Part shown: in pieces, positions 1-56,439 of the stretch
Layout of the letters: the number at the start of each line of letters is the position of its first letter
Numbering within the stretch: position 1 is the first letter of the stretch
DNA from: Luteolibacter sp. LG18
Lineage (GTDB): Bacteria > Verrucomicrobiota > Verrucomicrobiia > Verrucomicrobiales > Akkermansiaceae
Assembly (NCBI RefSeq): GCF_036322585.1
Contig: NZ_AP024600.1
Span: 4,712,001-4,776,000 of the forward strand
Length of the DNA stretch: 64,000 bases
Direction: 5' to 3'
Translations under genes and position numbers: made by a program
Notes under the pieces: generated by a model
What the model was told of the DNA's origin: nothing
Database searches by the model: none
Seen by the model: only the letters and a program-made list of their open reading frames with translations

Positions 1-505
1 GCTCTACTGGCTGGCCAAGATGCTGCACGCCGGCGAGGACCCGCGTTTCATCGCCCGCCGGCTGGTGATCTCCGCCAGCGAGGACATCGGCCTCGCCGAT
101 TCCGGGGCCCTGCGGGTGGCCGTGGATGCCCTTCAGGCGTTTGAATTCGTCGGCATGCCTGAGGGCCGCATCCCCCTCGCCCACGCCACCGTCTATCTCG
201 CCACCGCGCCGAAGTCGAACCGCGCCTACGAGGCCCTGGGCAAGGCGATGGCCGATGTCGAGCAGGGCCGCACGCTCGCCGTGCCGCCGCACCTGCGGAC
301 GAAGACACGGAAGAAGCTCGCCTCCGCCTCCGGGGAATCCGATGAGGCGTTGAAGTACCTCTACTCCCACGATTACCAGGGAGCCTACATCCCGCAGGCC
401 TACCTGCCCGAGGGCCGCACCTACTACACCCCCGGCGAAGAGGGCCTGGAGAAGCGCATCAAGGAACGCCTCGACCACTGGCGCCAACTACGGGACAAGC
501 AGTAG
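1..505 (+). CDS. rarA: RarA/MgsA replication-associated recombination ATPase, C-terminal part (5' truncated by window)
   Basis: Only the last 168 codons are present; the frame enters at base 2. RarA is a clamp-loader-like AAA+ ATPase that works with SSB at stalled replication forks in the cytoplasm. The visible part is the C-terminal tetramerisation region: the LYWLAKMLHAGEDP opening, the SEDIGLAD motif, the KSNRAYEAL motif and the closing YLPEGRTYYTP segment are typical of the family. The AAA+ core with its Walker motifs lies upstream of the window. The TAG stop (503-505) is part of the GTAG head of a REP palindrome, so the end of the protein is set by the repeat. The family call is firm. 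Confidence 0.93.
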   Translation, partial: LYWLAKMLHAGEDPRFIARRLVISASEDIGLADSGALRVAVDALQAFEFVGMPEGRIPLAHATVYLATAPKSNRAYEALGKAMADVEQGRTLAVPPHLRTKTRKKLASASGESDEALKYLYSHDYQGAYIPQAYLPEGRTYYTPGEEGLEKRIKERLDHWRQLRDKQ

Positions 506-634
506 CACAAGTTTTCAACTTGTGAGCGGGGACGGATCGATGCTCCGAAGACCGCCAAACGATCCGTCGGGACCGCTTGGGAGCGATCCAGGAAACGGAC
601 TTGGCACACCCACAAGCAGGAATGCTCGTGCTAC
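502..634. repeat. REP pair A (inverted GTAG palindromes) between convergent rarA and arsR-like gene
   Basis: Left REP (plus strand): GTAG at 502-505, then arms CACAAGTT (506-513) and AACTTGTG (517-524) around loop TTC. Right REP (minus strand): GTAG is the complement of 631-634, then arms CACGAGCA and TGCTTGTG (630 down to 611) around loop TTCC, with one G-T wobble. The two face each other over about 85 bases with no gene. Both flanking genes use the TAG within GTAG as their stop codon (503-505 and 633-631). A tetranucleotide head next to an imperfect palindrome is the published hallmark of REPs mobilised by RAYT transposases. Confidence 0.8.
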
Positions 635-933
635 CTCTCGTGCTTCAGCACCAGGTCCAGCAATCCCGGGAAGCGTTCCTCGAACTCGTCCTTCCGCACC
701 GAGCTCATGCAGCGGGTGCCTTCCACCCGCGTCGCCACCAGCCCGGCGTCCCGCAGGATCGCGAAGTGGTGCGAGCGCGTCGCCTTGGAAATATCGAGCG
801 GCACGCCGTTGCAGGCCAGCTCGCCGCCACCCAGCAGAGTCCGCACGATGGCGATGCGGCACGGATCGGAGAGCGCTTGCATCACCGTCGGCAGCGTCAC
901 TTCGTCGAGTGGCGGATGGCTGTATTCCTTCAT
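631..933 (-). CDS. ArsR-family winged-helix transcriptional regulator
   Basis: A 100-residue ArsR-type repressor with the usual small winged-helix layout: helix 1-2 with MQALSDPCRIAIV (residues 18-30), the recognition helix region ISKATRSHHFAILRDAGLV (48-66), then the wing with EGTRC (71-75). No classical metal site is obvious. Cysteines at 25, 41 and 75 could be redox or electrophile sensing, which is inference. It is divergent from the OYE/LLM flavin oxidoreductase pair with a 103-base gap holding two candidate dyads, so it most likely represses that pair and itself. The stop TAG comes from the right REP of pair A. Confidence 0.85.
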   Translation of the reverse strand: MKEYSHPPLDEVTLPTVMQALSDPCRIAIVRTLLGGGELACNGVPLDISKATRSHHFAILRDAGLVATRVEGTRCMSSVRKDEFEERFPGLLDLVLKHER

Positions 934-1036: not shown

Positions 1037-2113
1037 ATGACCGCTCGCACCGAATCCGCCTCCGAATTGCTCAGCCCGGTCCGCATCGGGGCCTGGGACC
1101 TCGCCAACCGTCTCGTCATGGCCCCCCTCACCCGCTGCCGCGCCAGCGAGGGACGGGTGCCGAACGCGATGATGGCCGAATACTACCGCCAGCGCGCCTC
1201 CGCCGGCCTGATCCTCACCGAGGCCACCTCGATCAATCCCCTCGGCGTCGGCTACCCGGACACGCCCGGCATTTGGTCGCAGGAGCAGGTCGAAGGCTGG
1301 AAGCTCGTCACCGACGCCGTCCATGAGGCGGGTGGAAAGATCATCCTCCAGCTCTGGCACGTCGGCCGCATTTCCGATCCCGTTTACCTGGACGGCGAAC
1401 TCCCGGTGGCCCCGAGCGCGATCGCGCCGTCCGGCCACGTCAGCTTGATCCGTCCGATGAAGCCCTTCGTCACGCCGCGAGCGCTAACGATCGAGGAAAT
1501 CCACGGCATCATCGGCGACTACCGCCGCGCCGCGGAAAACGCCAAGGCCGCCGGTTTCGATGGCGTGGAAATCCACGGCGCGAACGGCTACCTGCCCGAT
1601 CAGTTCCTCCAGAGCGGCACCAACCACCGCACCGATGAATACGGTGGCTCGGTCGAAAACCGCGCCCGTTTCATGCTGGAGGCCGTCGATGCGGCGATCT
1701 CGGTGTGGGGAGCCGACCGCGTGGGCCTCCACCTCGCGCCGCAGGGCGATTCCCACGACATGCACGACGAGGATCCCGCCGCCACCTTCGGCTACGTCGC
1801 CCGCGAGGCGTCGAAGCGCGGGCTGGCCTTCCTCTTCATCCGCGAAGGCCTCGATGTCGCCAAGCCCGTCGGCCCCGTGATCCGCGAGGCCTTCACCGGC
1901 ACCTACATCGCGAACCAGCAGCTCACCCGCGAATCCGCGGAAGAAGCCCTCTCCAGCGGCCTCGCCGATGCCGTCTCCTTCGGCCGCGAGTTCATCGCCA
2001 ATCCCGACCTGCCGCGCCGCTTCGCCCTCGGAGCGCCGCTCAATGAGCAGCACCCGGAAACGTTCTACGCTCCCGGCCCGCAGGGCTACACCGACTACCC
2101 GGCCCTCGCCTGA
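1037..2113 (+). CDS. Old yellow enzyme family alkene/ene reductase (NemA-like)
   Basis: A 358-residue FMN-dependent TIM barrel of the OYE family, which reduces activated C=C bonds in enones, maleimides, nitroesters and similar electrophiles with NAD(P)H. The substrate-binding pair H180 and N183 with the catalytic Y185 sits in [11 protein letters not shown], followed by [14 protein letters not shown], the most conserved stretch of the family. The N-terminal FMN site [11 protein letters not shown] (27-37) and the QLWHVGR segment (105-111) are also present. Length is normal. It is followed after 20 bases by an LLM flavin oxidoreductase, probably in one transcript, and is divergent from an ArsR regulator. 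The physiological substrate is not visible; electrophile detoxification is the usual role. Confidence 0.92.
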
Positions 2114-2133
2114 TCCCGCGATCCCCGCGCTCC

Positions 2134-3123
2134 ATGAAACGCCTCGCCGACATTCCCCTGTCCGTGCTCGACCTCGCCCCGATCTGCGAGGACGGAACGA
2201 TCGCGGACAGCTTCCGGAACTCGCTCGACCTGGCACAGCACGTGGAGCGCTGGGGCTACAAGCGCTTCTGGCTCGCCGAGCACCACGGCATCCCTGGCGT
2301 GGCCAGCGCCGCCACTTCCGTGCTCATCGGCCACGTCGCGCAGGGCACCACCACGCTGCGGATCGGTTCCGGCGGCATCATGCTGCCGAACCACCCGCCG
2401 CTGGTCATTGCCGAGCAATTCGGCACTCTCGAAACGCTCTACCCCGGCCGCATCGATCTCGGCCTGGGCCGAGCCCCCGGATCGGACCGCGCCACCGCCC
2501 ATGCGCTCGGCCGCGATCCCACCACCGCCGACTCCTTCCCGGAGCACGTCCACGAACTCCGCACCCTGCTCGGCGATTCCACGTCCGACCACAAGGTGAA
2601 AGCCATCCCCGGTACCGGCACCCACGTGCCGATCTGGTTGCTCGGATCCAGCACCTTCAGTGCCCAGCTCGCCGCGGCGATGGGCCTACCCTTCGCCTTT
2701 GCCGCCCATTTCGCCCCGCGCCAGATGCAGGAGGCCCTGCACCTCTACCGCACCTATTTCCAACCCTCAAAGGATCTCGCGCAACCCTATGCCATGGTCG
2801 GCCTACCGGTGATCGCCGCGGACACCGATGCAGAGGCCGAACGTCTCGCCACCTCGGCCCTCCAAAGCGTGCTCGGCCTCATCCGCCACAAGCCCGTCCG
2901 TGTCCAGCCGCCAGTCGACCGCATGGACGGCCTCTGGGACGCATCCGAGAAAGCCGCCGTCGCCTCATTCTTCGGCGCTGCCATCATCGGTGGCCCGGAA
3001 ACCGTGAAGCAAAAGCTGGAGGAAACCCTGGCCGCCACCCAAGCGGACGAGTTCATCCTGAACTCCCAATTCTACCACCACACCGACCGCCTGCGGTCGT
3101 ATGAGATCGTGAGCCAGCTCTAA
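2134..3123 (+). CDS. LLM class flavin-dependent oxidoreductase (luciferase-like, MsnO8-type)
   Basis: A 329-residue bacterial-luciferase-like TIM barrel. The start [17 protein letters not shown], the [21 protein letters not shown] segment, [13 protein letters not shown], and [16 protein letters not shown] are signatures of the single-component LLM group that includes MsnO8. Such enzymes use reduced FMN and oxygen, but their substrates are mostly unknown. It lies 20 bases behind the OYE reductase, which suggests co-transcription under the ArsR regulator. It is about 49 kb from the LuxC/LuxE-like genes and nothing in the sequence ties them together. The true luciferase alpha/beta pair is absent, so luminescence should not be inferred. 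Confidence 0.9.
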
Positions 3124-5920: not shown

Positions 5921-7441
5921 ATGCTCACCTTCCTCCATTCCCTCGGCATCGAAGGCCACCATGCCGGTGTGTTCGATGGCACGTGGCATGGCAGCGGACC
6001 GGAGGTGGCATCCGTCTCTCCCATCGATGGCCGCGTCATCGCTCGCATCCAGCAAGCCACCGCCGGGGATTGCAAGGAAGCCCTCGCCCGCGCCCAGGAG
6101 GCCTTCCAAGCCTGGCGCGAGGTGCCCGCCCCGGTCCGCGGCAAAACCGTCCGACGCATCGGCAACGCGCTGCGGGCTGCAAAGGAAGATCTCGCCCGCC
6201 TGATCACGCTGGAAACCGGCAAGATCCTCGCGGAAGCGGAGGGCGAAGTGCAGGAGATGATCGACATCTGCGACTTCGCGACCGGCCTTTCCCGGCAACT
6301 CCACGGCCTCACCATTGCCTCGGAACGCCCCGCCCATCGCCTCATGGAGCAATGGCATCCGCTCGGCCCCATCGGCGTGATCACCGCGTTCAATTTCCCC
6401 ACCGCCGTCTGGTCGTGGAACGCCGCGCTGGCCGCCGTATGCGGCGATGCCGTGCTGTGGAAGCCGTCCCACCGGGCTCCGCTTTGCGCGATCGCCACCA
6501 CACGGTTGGTCGAACGCGTCTGCAAAGGCACGGGCGCGAATCCCGCCATCTTCACCCTGCTCTGCGGCTCCGGGGACATCGCGGGCGATGCCATCGTGAA
6601 GGATCCGCGCGTGCCGCTCGTCTCCGCCACCGGCTCGTGCACGATGGGTCGCCGGATCGCCGCCACCGTCCACGCCCGGCTCGGTCGCACGCTTCTCGAA
6701 CTCGGCGGCAACAATGCCGTGATCGTCACGCCTACCGCGGATCTCGATCTCGCCGTGCGCGCGATCTTCTTCGGCGCGATCGGCACCGCTGGCCAACGCT
6801 GCACCACCACCCGCCGCGTGATCGTCCACGAATCCATTGAAACCGCCCTCCGCGAACGCCTGCTGAAGGCTTACTCCTCTCTGCGCATCGGCAATCCCCT
6901 CGACCGCTCCACGGTGATGGGCCCGGTCATCCATCCGGATGCCGTGGCAGCGTTAATGCAGGCGAAACGCCGGATCATCGATGAAGGCGGAGAGATTCTC
7001 CACGGCGGCGAATCTCTTCCGCTGCTCGGTCCCTGCTATGTGTCCCCCTGCCTCGCCCGTTCCCACCCGGACATGCCGGTGGTGCGCGAGGAGGTCTTCG
7101 CTCCCCTGCTCCACCTCCTGTCCTATCGCGATTTCGAAGACGCCATCGCCTGCCAGAACGCGGTTCCCCAGGGATTGAGCTCTGCCATTTTCACCAACGA
7201 CTTCCGCGAGGCCGAGCGTTTCCTGAGCGCCCGCGGCAGCGATTGCGGCATCGCCAATGTGAACGCCGGCACCAGCGGAGCGGAGATCGGCGGAGCCTTC
7301 GGTGGCGAGAAGGACACCGGTGGCGGTCGCGAAAGCGGCAGCGATGCCTGGAAAAACTACATGCGGCGCCAGACCAGCACCCTCAACCACGGAACCACCC
7401 TGCCGCTGGCACAGGGCATCCAGTTCGGAGATCCATCATGA
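5921..7441 (+). CDS. amaB: L-aminoadipate-semialdehyde dehydrogenase (ALDH7/antiquitin type)
   Basis: A 506-residue NAD-dependent aldehyde dehydrogenase. The general base E260 is in LLELGGNNA, the nucleophile C294 in TAGQRCTT, and the oxyanion N158 in TAFNFP. The C-terminal block GAEIGGAFGGEKDTGGGRES and the following MRRQT segment are diagnostic of the ALDH7 (antiquitin/AASADH) branch, which oxidises aminoadipate semialdehyde to 2-aminoadipate. This is the step after lysine 6-transaminase encoded just upstream. The start ATG at 5921 was chosen; an ATG at 5891 lies inside the previous gene. The last codons overlap the next gene (ATGA at 7438-7441), showing translational coupling. The symbol is by function; naming varies (amaB, pcd). 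Confidence 0.92.
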   Translation: MLTFLHSLGIEGHHAGVFDGTWHGSGPEVASVSPIDGRVIARIQQATAGDCKEALARAQEAFQAWREVPAPVRGKTVRRIGNALRAAKEDLARLITLETGKILAEAEGEVQEMIDICDFATGLSRQLHGLTIASERPAHRLMEQWHPLGPIGVITAFNFPTAVWSWNAALAAVCGDAVLWKPSHRAPLCAIATTRLVERVCKGTGANPAIFTLLCGSGDIAGDAIVKDPRVPLVSATGSCTMGRRIAATVHARLGRTLLELGGNNAVIVTPTADLDLAVRAIFFGAIGTAGQRCTTTRRVIVHESIETALRERLLKAYSSLRIGNPLDRSTVMGPVIHPDAVAALMQAKRRIIDEGGEILHGGESLPLLGPCYVSPCLARSHPDMPVVREEVFAPLLHLLSYRDFEDAIACQNAVPQGLSSAIFTNDFREAERFLSARGSDCGIANVNAGTSGAEIGGAFGGEKDTGGGRESGSDAWKNYMRRQTSTLNHGTTLPLAQGIQFGDPS

Positions 7442-50843: not shown

Positions 50844-51290
50844 TCAGGGAACGCGGAAGTACTTCTTCTCGCCGCTCTGATAGGTCGGGTCCTGGACCAG
50901 GGTGCCGCTCGGGATGTCCCGCACGTCCACCATCTTGTTGTTATACGGGCTGAAGACGAAGCCTTCCTTGCCGGGCACCGGATTGGCGAAAGGATAGTCC
51001 TTCTTGTTCTCCTGCTTCGGCTTCGGCTGGGTCGGCTCGGTGGTGCCGCCTTCCGGCTTGCTGAGGTTTTCGGCCGTCTTGTTGGCCTCCTCTTCCTTCT
51101 TCTTGAGCTCTTCCTCCTTCTTTTTCAGCTCGTCCCGCTTCTTCTGCAGTTCCTGCTGCTCCGGGCTCAGGACGGTCTGCTGCGGCTGCTGGCCCTTCTT
51201 GCCGGGACCGCCGTGCTCCGGGTAAACCGTGCAGGACACGAGCAGCGATCCGCTCAGCGCGGCGACACCAAGGAGAAGACGGGAGGACAT
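50844..51290 (-). CDS. Putative lipoprotein with Lys/Glu-rich coiled coil
   Basis: A 148-residue exported protein with a lipobox (LLVSC at residues 16-20, Cys20), so it is probably lipidated. Residues about 43-75 form a charged helix of KKRDELKKKEEELKKKEEE type, followed by a Pro/Thr/Lys-rich linker. The C-terminal end has NPVPGKEGFVFSPYNNKMVDVRDIPSGTLVQDPTY, which recurs in short proteins of Verrucomicrobia as I recall; I give it no family name. It lies 63 bases upstream of tyrA. Confidence 0.78.
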   Translation of the reverse strand: MSSRLLLGVAALSGSLLVSCTVYPEHGGPGKKGQQPQQTVLSPEQQELQKKRDELKKKEEELKKKEEEANKTAENLSKPEGGTTEPTQPKPKQENKKDYPFANPVPGKEGFVFSPYNNKMVDVRDIPSGTLVQDPTYQSGEKKYFRVP

Positions 51291-51456
51291 GACTGGGAAA
51301 TAATTGGGGTTATGGGACCGGATATTGCGTCAACCAGGGCGGGCTTGCAACACCGGGATCATTGGACCAACCCGCGCTCGCGTCAAGCCGTCGCGTCATC
51401 CGCCACTGATCGCTTCCCATCCGCCCGCCAAGCCTCTAAGGCCATGGGCAGGCCTG

Positions 51457-52494
51457 ATGGAATCCCCGCGCACACCACTGTTGGATTGGATGAACGGACG
51501 AGGAACCGTTCCATCCTTCGATGACCTGGCGCTCGCCGTGTTCCGGCACCAGTTCCAGCTCAACGAGCCCTACCGGCGCTATGCCATGGCTCGCGGCCGC
51601 ACGCCGGAGACGGTGGCGCGCTGGCAGGAGATCCCGGCGGTGCCGACCGATGCCTTCAAGCTGACCCGCCACCCGCTGCGTTGTTTCCCGGCCTCCGAAA
51701 CGCGGGCCATTTTCCGCACCTCCGGCACCACCCGGGACATCCGCGGCGAACACGCCTTCGACGACCTCACGCTCTACGAAACCTCGATTCTGCAAGGCTG
51801 GCGGCATGCCGGACTACCGGTGCCGGAGAATCCGTGGTTCGTCTTCCAAGCCCCCACCAACGCCCCGGATTCCTCGCTCGGCCACATGTTTGGCACGCTC
51901 CAACAGGCTCATGCGCCGGACGCCGCCGACCGCTGGCTGATCGACGCCACCGGTCGGCTCAATCCCGCCCCTCTCGCCCGCGCCGCGGCGGAGGGCCGCC
52001 CGATCGCCCTTTTCGCGACCGCGCTAGGACTACTGCGAATGATCGAGGCGGACCAGCACGTGACGCTGCCCGCGGGCTCGTGGATGTTCGAAACCGGCGG
52101 CTACAAGGGCGTGAAGGTCGAGCTGGAGCCCGCCGCCTTCCGCGCGCTGGTGGCGGAGCGTTTCGCGATCGAACCGTCCCACCTGCTCAACGAGTACGGC
52201 ATGACCGAGCTCAGCTCGCCCTTCTACGCGTGGAACGGCGAGGCCTCCCACCGCGGCAGTCCCTGGACCCGCATCCGGGTGGTCGATCCCGAAACCGGCG
52301 AAACCGCCGCAGAGGGCCAGCCCGGTTACCTGGAAATCCTCGACCTCGCCAACCTCGGCTCGGTCGCCGCGATCCGCACCCAGGACCTCGCCATCGCCAC
52401 CGGTGACACCACCTTCACCCTGCTCGGACGCGATCCCGCCGCCCTGCCCCGCGGCTGCTCCCGTCGCACCGACGACCTCCTCACTTCACCATGA
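51457..52494 (+). CDS. LuxE-like acyl-protein synthetase
   Basis: A 345-residue adenylate-forming enzyme of the LuxE family. In the lux system LuxE activates a fatty acid with ATP and hands it to the LuxC reductase. Motifs: AIFRTSGTTRDIRGEHAFDD (phosphate-binding loop TSGTT), FATALGLLRMIE, SWMFETGGYKGVKVELE and LLNEYGMTELSSPFY. ATG 51457 is chosen; the upstream extension to 51304 is Pro/Arg-rich and unlike the family. It overlaps the LuxC-like gene by ATGA. LuxD and LuxAB are absent. Confidence 0.88.
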   Translation: MESPRTPLLDWMNGRGTVPSFDDLALAVFRHQFQLNEPYRRYAMARGRTPETVARWQEIPAVPTDAFKLTRHPLRCFPASETRAIFRTSGTTRDIRGEHAFDDLTLYETSILQGWRHAGLPVPENPWFVFQAPTNAPDSSLGHMFGTLQQAHAPDAADRWLIDATGRLNPAPLARAAAEGRPIALFATALGLLRMIEADQHVTLPAGSWMFETGGYKGVKVELEPAAFRALVAERFAIEPSHLLNEYGMTELSSPFYAWNGEASHRGSPWTRIRVVDPETGETAAEGQPGYLEILDLANLGSVAAIRTQDLAIATGDTTFTLLGRDPAALPRGCSRRTDDLLTSP

Positions 52495-53570
52495 CCGCCA
52501 CCCGCCAACGCCTCGAGGCCCTGCTGGCCCAGCGCGACGCCCTCACGCCATGGGTCGGGGAGTTCGACGAAGCCGCCCTGACCGGCCTGCTGGAAACCCA
52601 GCTCGGCTCCGCGGACGCGCTCGATGCCTGGGTTCCGCGTGGCGATACCCGTGGGAGAGCCGTGCCCTATTCGCCGCTGCTCCATGTGGTGAGCGGCAAC
52701 ACCCCGCACGCCGCCTTTCAATCCGTGTTCCGCGGACTCCTCGTAGGTAGCCACAACCGGGTCAAGCTCCCCTCCTCCGGCCTCCCGGAGTTCGAGGCCT
52801 GGGTCCCCACCCTACCGCCGGTGCTGCGTGATCTCATCGAGATCCGCCACGACCTGCCGGACGAGTGGCTCGCCAGTGAAGCCGCCGTGGTCTTCGGCAG
52901 CGCCTCCACCCTGGCCACCTTCCGCGAACTGCTGTCGTCCGGCACACCGCTGATCGATCACGGCCCGAAATTGAGCATCGGCGTGGTGTTCGAACCGGAC
53001 CGGGAAGCCGCCGATCTCGCGGCGCGTGACATCCTCGCTTACGAGCAACGCGGCTGCCTCTCCATCCAAGCCCTCTACGTCGCCGGAGGACCGATCGCGG
53101 CGGGACGTTTTGCCGCCGAACTGGCAGGGGCCATGGCGCGCCACCGTGAAGCGCACGGGCGGGAGTCACTCAGCCTCTCGGAAAGCGGAGCCATTTCGAA
53201 CAGCCGCGAACTGCTGCGTTTCCGCTTCGCCAATGGCGACGACGTGGCGCTGTGGGAAAGCGAGGGCGACACGAGCTGGACGGTGGTCTATCAGGCCGAT
53301 CCGACGCTCGCGCCCGGTCCGCTCAATGGCTTCGTCACCGTGCACCCCCTGCCTCCGGCCGGACGCTTGCACGAGGCGCTGGGCCCGGAAACCGCCCACC
53401 TTTCCACGGTGGCGATCCACCCCTACACCGACGCGCTGGCCGACCGGTTGGAACCGCTCTCGGCCCCACGCGTCTGCCCGCTCGGCCAATCCCAGCAACC
53501 GCCCTTCTTCTGGCACCACGACGGCCGCATGCCACTGGCCGATCTGGTCCGCTGGCGCGACCGCGCCTAA
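52491..53570 (+). CDS. LuxC-like acyl-CoA/acyl-protein reductase
   Basis: A 359-residue aldehyde-dehydrogenase-fold reductase of the LuxC family that reduces activated acyl groups to aldehydes with NADPH. C189 in YEQRGCLSIQALYV is the likely acyl-thioester nucleophile; VVSGNTPHAAFQSVFRGLLV and VVFGSASTLATF are family segments. The start overlaps the LuxE-like gene (ATGA at 52491). With LuxE it could make a fatty aldehyde for a product other than light, as in many non-luminous bacteria. Fourteen bases on, an IF-1-like gene begins. Confidence 0.87.
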   Translation: MTATRQRLEALLAQRDALTPWVGEFDEAALTGLLETQLGSADALDAWVPRGDTRGRAVPYSPLLHVVSGNTPHAAFQSVFRGLLVGSHNRVKLPSSGLPEFEAWVPTLPPVLRDLIEIRHDLPDEWLASEAAVVFGSASTLATFRELLSSGTPLIDHGPKLSIGVVFEPDREAADLAARDILAYEQRGCLSIQALYVAGGPIAAGRFAAELAGAMARHREAHGRESLSLSESGAISNSRELLRFRFANGDDVALWESEGDTSWTVVYQADPTLAPGPLNGFVTVHPLPPAGRLHEALGPETAHLSTVAIHPYTDALADRLEPLSAPRVCPLGQSQQPPFFWHHDGRMPLADLVRWRDRA

Positions 53571-53584
53571 TCCCCTTTCCCATC

Positions 53585-53800
53585 ATGTTCGACGATCCAC
53601 CGGTCCGCACCACCGCCACCATCGAGAAACCGCTCGATTCCAACCTCTACCACGCGGCGCTTCCCAACGGGAAGATCGTCATCGCCCACCTTTCGAAGGC
53701 GTTGCTTGAAGCCCACGCCGTGTTCGAAGCGGGCCAGCAGGTCCATCTGGAACTGACTCCCTACGATTTCGACACCGCCCGCATCATGGGCCTCGCCTGA
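53585..53800 (+). CDS. Translation initiation factor IF-1-like protein
   Basis: A 71-residue S1/OB-fold protein close to IF-1 in length and plan: LPNGKIVIAHLS, EAGQQVHLELTPYDFDTARI correspond to the IF-1 strands with the LxPYD signature. The basic loop that in IF-1 (GKMRMNFIRI) reaches the 16S decoding site is replaced by SKALLEAHAVF, and the C-terminal basic tail is absent. It follows luxC by 14 bases. It could be the cell's only infA or a paralogue with another role; the altered loop makes the second more likely. No gene symbol is given. Confidence 0.75.
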   Translation: MFDDPPVRTTATIEKPLDSNLYHAALPNGKIVIAHLSKALLEAHAVFEAGQQVHLELTPYDFDTARIMGLA

Positions 53801-53806
53801 GGCTCC

Positions 53807-53917
53807 GGGCCGCTCCTCGTAAAAATGAAGCGGCCCGACCGATCCTCCCCGGGAAAAACCCAAAAACCCAAGGGATCCTCAGTCGGGCCGCCTGCTTTTG
53901 TCGCGACGCGCGCGTCG
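53807..53917. terminator. Nested hairpins in the 251-base gap between convergent genes
   Basis: GGGCCGCT (53807-53814) pairs perfectly with AGCGGCCC (53829-53836). The same AGCGGCCC plus GACCGATCC can instead pair with GGATCC...GTCGGGCCG downstream (about 53874-53890). A 14-base perfect palindrome CGACGCGCGCGTCG lies at 53904-53917, flanked by TTTTG and CAAAA. This fits a compound, bidirectional terminator for the luxE-luxC-IF1 operon and the opposing gene. No gene is seen in 53801-54051. Confidence 0.5.
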
Positions 53918-55737: not shown

Positions 55738-56439
55738 ATGCTCGATGAAATCCGCGACCTGCTGGTGCTCCAGGACCGTGACAAACGCCTCCAGACCATC
55801 CAGAAGGACTTGGACAAGCTCCCGCAGGAAGAGACCCGCGCGAAGACCAAGCTTTCCGGCGACCAGGCGGCGGTGGACAAGGCGACCGAGGCGCTCCGCG
55901 CCTGCGAACTGGAGGTCAAGAAGGTGGAGCTGGATGCCGAGACACGCCGCACCACCATCAAGCGGCTGAAACTCCAACAGTTCGAAACCCGCAAGAACGA
56001 CGAATACCAGGCGCTGGGACACGAGGTGATACGCTACGAGAAGGACCTCGATGGACTGGAAACCCGCGAGTTGGAGCTGATGGAGGAAACCGACGGCCTG
56101 CGCACGGCGCTGGCCGAGGCAAACGCGGCTCTGGCGAAGACCCGCGGACTGGTCGACGCCGACCTGGCCTCCATCGCGGAACGCAAGGCCAACCTGCTGG
56201 CCGCGCGGGACGAGGTGAAGGCCGAGCGCGACCGCCTCGCGGCCGCGGGTCCGGCCAACGTGATGCCCCTCTACGAACGCCTCCTGAAGACCAAGGGCGG
56301 AGTCGCGATCGCGCCGATGCACGAGGGCCGCTGCGGCGGCTGCCACATGAAGCTGATCGCCGGCACCGTGATCAAGGTGCAGGCCGCCAAGGAAATCGCC
56401 CAGTGCGAGGACTGCGGACGCATCCTCTACGCGGATTGA
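55738..56439 (+). CDS. COG1579 coiled-coil zinc-ribbon protein
   Basis: A 233-residue protein of the COG1579 (CT398-like) family: a long N-terminal coiled coil (about 10-175) followed by a C-terminal zinc ribbon with CGGCHMKL and CEDCGRILY. Members bind nucleic acids or act near flagellar/secretion or RNA polymerase machinery in some lineages; no fixed function can be assigned. ATG 55738 is the natural start. The gene ends 13 bases before REP element E. Confidence 0.88.
   Translation: MLDEIRDLLVLQDRDKRLQTIQKDLDKLPQEETRAKTKLSGDQAAVDKATEALRACELEVKKVELDAETRRTTIKRLKLQQFETRKNDEYQALGHEVIRYEKDLDGLETRELELMEETDGLRTALAEANAALAKTRGLVDADLASIAERKANLLAARDEVKAERDRLAAAGPANVMPLYERLLKTKGGVAIAPMHEGRCGGCHMKLIAGTVIKVQAAKEIAQCEDCGRILYAD

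Follow-up and report, generated by a model that had tools for sequence, protein, structure and literature searches.

The window analysed in the current study, a 64,000-nucleotide stretch from Luteolibacter sp. LG18 (a genome consisting of a single contig of 5.8 Mb), contains three closely spaced genes on the plus strand. The first is a luxE-like gene (51457..52494; 345 aa), predicted to encode an ATP-dependent acyl-protein synthetase with a C-terminal RGCSR motif that includes an invariant cysteine, C334. It is followed by a luxC-like gene (52491..53570; 359 aa) for a predicted acyl-protein/acyl-CoA reductase, which has an invariant cysteine, C189, in the motif QRGCLS. The third gene, here called IF1L (53585..53800), encodes a diverged paralogue of the initiation factor IF-1, a protein of 71 aa with a predicted OB fold and a net charge of -4 (K+R minus D+E). 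The stop codon of luxE (52492-52494) overlaps the ATG of luxC (beginning at 52491) by four bases, and 14 bases separate the end of the luxC stop codon (53570) from the ATG of IF1L (53585). This is the arrangement described in the original prediction, and all three reading frames were found in their places.

The three genes are presumably transcribed together as an operon. A spacer of 166 nt (51291..51456), in which the promoter of the operon presumably lies, is shared with a divergent gene for a lipoprotein-like protein (50844-51290, minus strand). A scan for consensus promoters identified none for the luxE-luxC-IF1L operon; a sigma-70-like match on the minus strand (51386-51358) points toward the lipoprotein-like gene. 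Directly 3' of IF1L, a G+C-rich stem-loop (53830..53891) with a 10-bp stem at its base is a candidate for the end of the transcript. It was not listed by the consensus terminator scan of the plus strand, and its z score was -2.83, with one of 200 shuffled sequences folding equally well.

The lipoprotein-like protein has a low-complexity middle part rich in lysine and glutamate and a conserved C-terminus, and its gene faces the operon in many relatives. In an alignment of the spacer from loci with and without lux genes, a TTGACG promoter-like box on the lipoprotein strand looked conserved. Elsewhere in the window (55738-56439, plus strand), a coiled-coil zinc-ribbon protein of the CT398 type (PF24481, PF02591) is encoded, which reached 78.9 bits against the CdsZ model, below the cut-off of 275.

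Both lux-type proteins scored over the cut-offs of their Pfam families (LuxE-like: PF04443, 51.9 bits, cut-off 24.9; LuxC-like: PF05893, 148.7 bits, cut-off 21). Their closest solved relatives were LuxE and LuxC of PDB 7xc6, with phmmer E-values of 1.2e-9 and 1.7e-14, respectively. In an alignment of 13 homologues, C189 of the LuxC-like protein did not vary, and in 7xc6 it is matched by the cysteine of DQQACFS. In ten aligned LuxE proteins the motifs TSGTT, ETGG-KG, NEY-MTEL and the C-terminal RGCSR were invariant or nearly so, and RGCSR with its cysteine was found in all ten rows; the alignment to 7xc6 ended short of this cysteine. C189 is taken to be the catalytic cysteine that accepts the acyl group, and the C-terminal cysteine of LuxE is presumably acyl-accepting, a role known for LuxE of Vibrio harveyi. 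From its family membership the pair is predicted to activate an acid and to reduce it to an aldehyde. The acid may be a fatty acid, although relatives of these enzymes in other bacteria work in glycan islands, and the production of a fatty aldehyde for a lipid, suggested in the original prediction, is plausible.

The aldehyde would presumably serve a purpose other than light. The absence of luxD, part of the original prediction, holds for the whole genome, in which PF02273 had no match. The claim that luciferase is also absent stands for the gene cluster itself, but the genome does encode one protein of the luciferase-like family PF00296, located in the same window (~2134-3123, plus strand) 48 kb from the trio. 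A full lux bioluminescence operon, with luxA and luxB accompanied by luxC, luxD and luxE, is not present here. The presence of the PF00296 protein would allow the lux pair to feed bioluminescence, but this is extremely unlikely, as the protein is a single flavin oxidoreductase of the MsnO8/YhbW type (TIGR03558, 430 bits), is not scored as LuxA or LuxB and has no LuxA-LuxB partner arrangement, and its family also occurred in 10 of 14 control genomes. Moreover, the LuxC-like and LuxE-like proteins both failed the equivalog models of the luminous type (NF052251, 61.3 bits, cut-off 750; NF052244, 44.9 bits, cut-off 550).

The trio was followed through 61 named GTDB loci, which had been retrieved with an alignment of LuxC and close LuxC patterns; near relatives of the query are over-represented in this sample. 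By their titles all 61 belonged to the Verrucomicrobiota, and the nearest named relatives were Verrucomicrobiaceae and Akkermansiaceae, including Luteolibacter pohnpeiensis. Of these loci, 57 had at least 300 nt after LuxC and were evaluable for IF-1 (L130, L141, L151 and L153 were dropped). An IF-1-family ORF lay 3' of LuxC on the same strand in 49 of the 57, within 150 nt in 48; in L122, the only locus where LuxC and IF-1 stand apart on one fragment, the distance was 1862 nt. No IF-1 gene was found after LuxC in the other eight (L117, L135, L136, L137, L143, L144, L145 and L148, with L117 and L143 being short). Clustering of the LuxC proteins at 60% identity gave 18 evaluable clusters, of which 14 were linked to IF-1, one had it near and three did not have it. 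LuxE was found upstream of LuxC in 49 of 58 loci, and within 60 nt in 40 of them, three loci with too little upstream DNA being dropped. The order luxE-luxC-IF1 thus recurs in other genera and orders, which places this chain of genes beyond chance and bears out the association of the lux pair with an IF-1-family gene elsewhere. A trio restricted to the window was considered and rejected, since the arrangement recurs both in the named loci and in the phylum sample described below.

Among 59 relatives, PF05893 matched in 16, namely 13 of the genus (the own genome included), G042, G057 and, weakly, G056, whose match of 22.8 bits was not counted as LuxC. All 13 LuxC genes of the genus lay directly 5' of IF1L at a distance of 10-14 nt (window included), and in G057, which belongs to another family, the gap was 23 nt; the IF-1-like ORF after LuxC in G042 scored 26.2 bits. 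Extremely diverged IF-1-like proteins (26-27 bits) were observed directly after LuxC in L072 (G042, 7127-7342, minus strand) and L185 (G491, 2108-2323, minus strand). In four loci (L059, L060, L061 and L066) two genes are inserted between luxE and luxC while luxC-IF1L is intact, and by eye the insert resembles a VapBC-type toxin-antitoxin pair.

The survey of neighbours in the 61 named loci revealed no conserved aldehyde-consuming gene adjoining the trio, and a conserved aldehyde-using enzyme beside it was therefore rejected. The recurrent neighbours were tyrA, aroA, cmk, a plsC-like gene and the lipoprotein-like gene, which make up the common upstream region of Akkermansiaceae-type loci and represent no lipid pathway.

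The best sequence and fold matches of IF1L were bacterial IF-1 proteins. AlphaFold2 modelled it with high confidence as an OB barrel (pLDDT 93.2), and the top PDB matches of the model were all IF-1, with TM values of 0.86-0.88 for the best three, supporting an OB fold of the IF-1 type. With 29.4 bits, IF1L scored just below the Pfam cut-off for eIF-1a/IF-1 (PF01176, 30.2), and it failed the infA equivalog TIGR00008 (25.3 bits, cut-off 61.15). The same genome contains a canonical infA at C1:2911163, which scored 73.8 bits in a search that gave 28.2 bits for the window copy. The suggestion that the third gene is this genome's infA was rejected on these grounds. Neither of the two findings that would have overturned the original prediction, a lack of association with lux genes elsewhere and identity with infA, was therefore borne out. 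A reading of the third gene as plain infA is very improbable. Membership of the IF-1 family by profile and fold would fit such a reading, as would the canonical-type residues of lux-linked copies in Chthoniobacterales-type genomes and two draft genomes (G447 and G450) in which the lux-linked copy was the only IF-1 gene found, but the window copy lies below the TIGR00008 cut-off and lacks most of the residues that contact the 30S subunit.

The loss of these residues was followed across copies. Seven basic positions of E. coli IF-1 were all retained in 12 lux-linked sequences of the canonical type and in 11 infA sequences, whereas IF1L sequences retained on average 2.0 of 7 when lux-linked (36 sequences) and 2.1 of 7 when orphan (15 sequences). 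The predicted pI of IF1L is 5.3; the IF-1 domain of the infA product in the same genome has a predicted pI of 9.7. According to PMC10913371, residues K39, R41 and R46 of IF-1 (counted with the initial Met) contact the 530 loop and A1492/A1493, and H35, Y60, R64 and R66 (likewise Met-counted) face S12. The former three correspond to K38, R40 and R45 in the mature E. coli numbering, and these positions were basic in only 8, 5 and 2 of the 36 lux-linked IF1L copies from Verrucomicrobiales, versus 12 of 12 each in the lux-linked copies of the canonical type. On the S12-facing side, the histidine was found in 35 of 36 copies, the tyrosine in 26 (the rest having phenylalanine) and R66 (Met-counted) in all 36. 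Because the basic helix touching the 530 loop and A1492/A1493 has been lost, IF1L is probably no longer an initiation factor and more likely acts as a separate accessory protein that associates with RNA or the ribosome. Values of dN/dS for close pairs, from which loci known as duplicates of genus genomes were dropped, were between 0.02 and 0.46 in 44 of the 45 pairs listed and 0.61 in one, with linked and orphan copies behaving alike, indicating that IF1L is a maintained protein under purifying selection.

The linkage has clear limits. In an even draw of 387 genomes of the phylum, LuxC was detected in 19; LuxE adjoined LuxC in 18 of these, and IF-1 in only 5. In a draw of 141 genomes of the order, 14 had a LuxC match, 11 of them above 100 bits. 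Among these 11, IF-1 lay within 150 nt in seven (G000, G028, G042, G057, G405, G429 and G491) and at 1.9-3 kb in two (G483 and G518), while in two others (G514 and G538) IF1L was located elsewhere. Together, both draws suggest that LuxE-LuxC is the older and wider unit, which IF-1 joined in some lineages. At least two IF-1-family matches, which were not each classed as IF1L, were present in 126 of the 141 genomes of the order, with one match in 14 and none in 1. In the genus (G000-G036), 34 of the 37 genomes carried IF1L, counted at an E-value of 1e-11 or better, whereas LuxC was confined to 13; G015 and G034 had an infA-type match only, and G020, which is 59% complete, had no IF-1 match. This weakens the idea of an IF-1-like protein in the service of the lux pair, since in most relatives IF1L persists where lux genes are absent.

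Two kinds of IF-1 are linked to the lux pair. In loci of Chthoniobacter, Chthoniobacterales and Spartobacteria, and in some without an order name, the linked IF-1 is canonical in type (12 full copies), and in Verrucomicrobiales it is the diverged IF1L. In most Chthoniobacterales-type genomes (L123-L154) two to three IF-1 genes were observed, including a KGRI-type in which K41 is lost and KARI-types, one of them lux-linked. A tree of IF-1 sequences (~70 residues, midpoint-rooted) did not join the canonical-type linked copies with IF1L, so that the linkage may have arisen independently in the two groups. L120 and L129 (undetermined residues) and L130 (cut) were dropped from both the tree and the residue table, as were the lux-linked L167, L170, L173 and L174, which were already included under other identifiers.

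Within IF1L, the orphan sequences nest among the lux-linked ones in the tree. Where lux genes are present, the lipoprotein gene faces luxE; in 11 loci lacking them, the immediate divergent neighbour of this lipoprotein gene is IF1L, and the spacers are of similar length (167-223 nt without and 158-168 nt with lux genes). The same lipoprotein gene also lies next to luxE in G057 (another family) and in G538 (another genus). In L191 (G472), a weak LuxC fragment of 33 bits (501-902, plus strand) located 48 nt before IF1L looks like a remnant, possibly of a decaying luxC. The nested orphans, the lipoprotein-facing orphan IF1L genes with their similar spacers and the putative LuxC remnant in G472 suggest that luxE-luxC was lost repeatedly while IF1L was kept, with insertion being the alternative direction.

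What the link means is the point on which plain operon inheritance and functional coupling compete, and both fit inside the explanation favoured below. The chances are about even that in some ancestor luxE-luxC came to lie 5' of an additional copy of infA, that the proteins are unrelated in function and that the order has persisted because a break in the operon would silence IF1L. Such hitch-hiking agrees with the 21 of 34 IF1L-bearing genomes of the genus that have no lux genes, with further lineages in which an orphan IF1L follows some other gene (e.g. L033, L050, L068 and L070) and with the restriction of the linkage to certain lineages (5 of 19 in the phylum sample). It is less easily reconciled with the persistence of LuxC-IF1 adjacency (48/57), which has outlasted both LuxE within 60 nt (40/58) and the tyrA neighbour (23/61), and with the fact that an inserted gene pair splits LuxE from LuxC in several loci, whereas LuxC and IF1 stand apart on a single fragment in L122 alone.

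A tight, co-directional and repeated linkage of this kind would be expected if IF1L, or the extra IF-1, influenced the lux pair, either by binding RNA and regulating the operon or by joining a LuxC-LuxE complex as a subunit, tying acid reduction to translation or the cold response. According to a review (PMC3017892), IF1 of E. coli acts as an RNA chaperone and in transcription antitermination and can replace cold-shock proteins. This functional coupling is possible but rather doubtful, since IF1L occurs without lux genes in most genomes of the genus, many LuxE-LuxC pairs across the phylum have no IF-1 beside them, and the acidic character of IF1L and the loss of most of its basic residues speak against strong RNA binding.

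Our favoured explanation, held with moderate confidence, is that luxE-luxC-IF1 is an old operon of Verrucomicrobiota which makes an aldehyde for purposes other than light and carries a co-transcribed, neofunctionalised IF-1 paralogue with a role independent of the lux genes. LuxE would convert a carboxylic acid to acyl-AMP, a long-chain fatty acid being the most likely substrate; the acyl group would then move onto the C-terminal cysteine of LuxE and from there to the cysteine of LuxC, which would reduce it to the aldehyde. The third gene would have begun as an extra copy of IF-1, still canonical in Chthoniobacterales-type genomes, which in Verrucomicrobiales diverged into IF1L, losing the basic helix for the 530 loop and A1492/A1493 and retaining its OB barrel together with the positions that face S12 (H34, Y/F59 and R65). 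Being co-transcribed with luxE-luxC and yet useful on its own, IF1L would have stayed when the luxE-luxC part was repeatedly lost. A more specific version is speculative and improbable: IF1L would be a neofunctionalised family found nearly throughout the Verrucomicrobiales, which has lost binding to the 30S A site, has kept the S12 side and, in strains with the lux genes, ties ribosome state or cold stress to a membrane component derived from fatty aldehyde through LuxE-LuxC. If true, a paralogue of a translation factor would act as a regulator of lipid chemistry.

LuxC-LuxE pairs are widespread in non-luminous bacteria, and their product is known in only a minority of cases. A conserved neighbour that is paralogous to an essential translation factor offers a concrete handle on these pairs, and several of the named loci come from culturable strains (Luteolibacter pohnpeiensis, Persicirhabdus sediminis and Rubritalea marina) that permit knock-outs and lipidomics. 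IF1L also represents a natural experiment on what IF-1 becomes after losing its 30S contacts. The families themselves are already known; no description of the luxE-luxC-IF-1 trio or of the diverged IF-1 paralogue was found in searches of an open-access library.

The locus shares with the lux operon of luminous bacteria (PDB 7xc6) the same two families, the catalytic cysteine of LuxC, the C-terminal cysteine motif of LuxE and the adjacency of the genes. It differs in the order luxE-luxC and in lacking luxD, luxA and luxB; the LuxC of the window is ~120 residues shorter at the N-terminus, the alignment beginning at residue 98-107 of the 477-residue 7xc6 chain, and both proteins are far below the NCBIfam cut-offs for the luminous type. 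Use of these families without luciferase is shared with other non-luminous bacteria: LuxE/LuxC-like genes of Aeromonas are located in flagellin glycosylation islands (PMC7874193), and LuxE is discussed for Riemerella AS87_03730 and for RfbN and the O-antigen of Vibrio cholerae (PMC4772473). Unlike the trio, those genes lie in glycan islands or are reported singly, and the available portions of these papers mention no IF-1 paralogue. IF1L has in common with IF-1 (infA) the 71-residue OB fold, but most copies have lost K38, R40, K41, R45 and R69. As a small OB-fold protein it also resembles the cold-shock-type RNA chaperones, so that an RNA-chaperone role is possible, but it differs from them in being acidic and, by sequence, a paralogue of IF-1.
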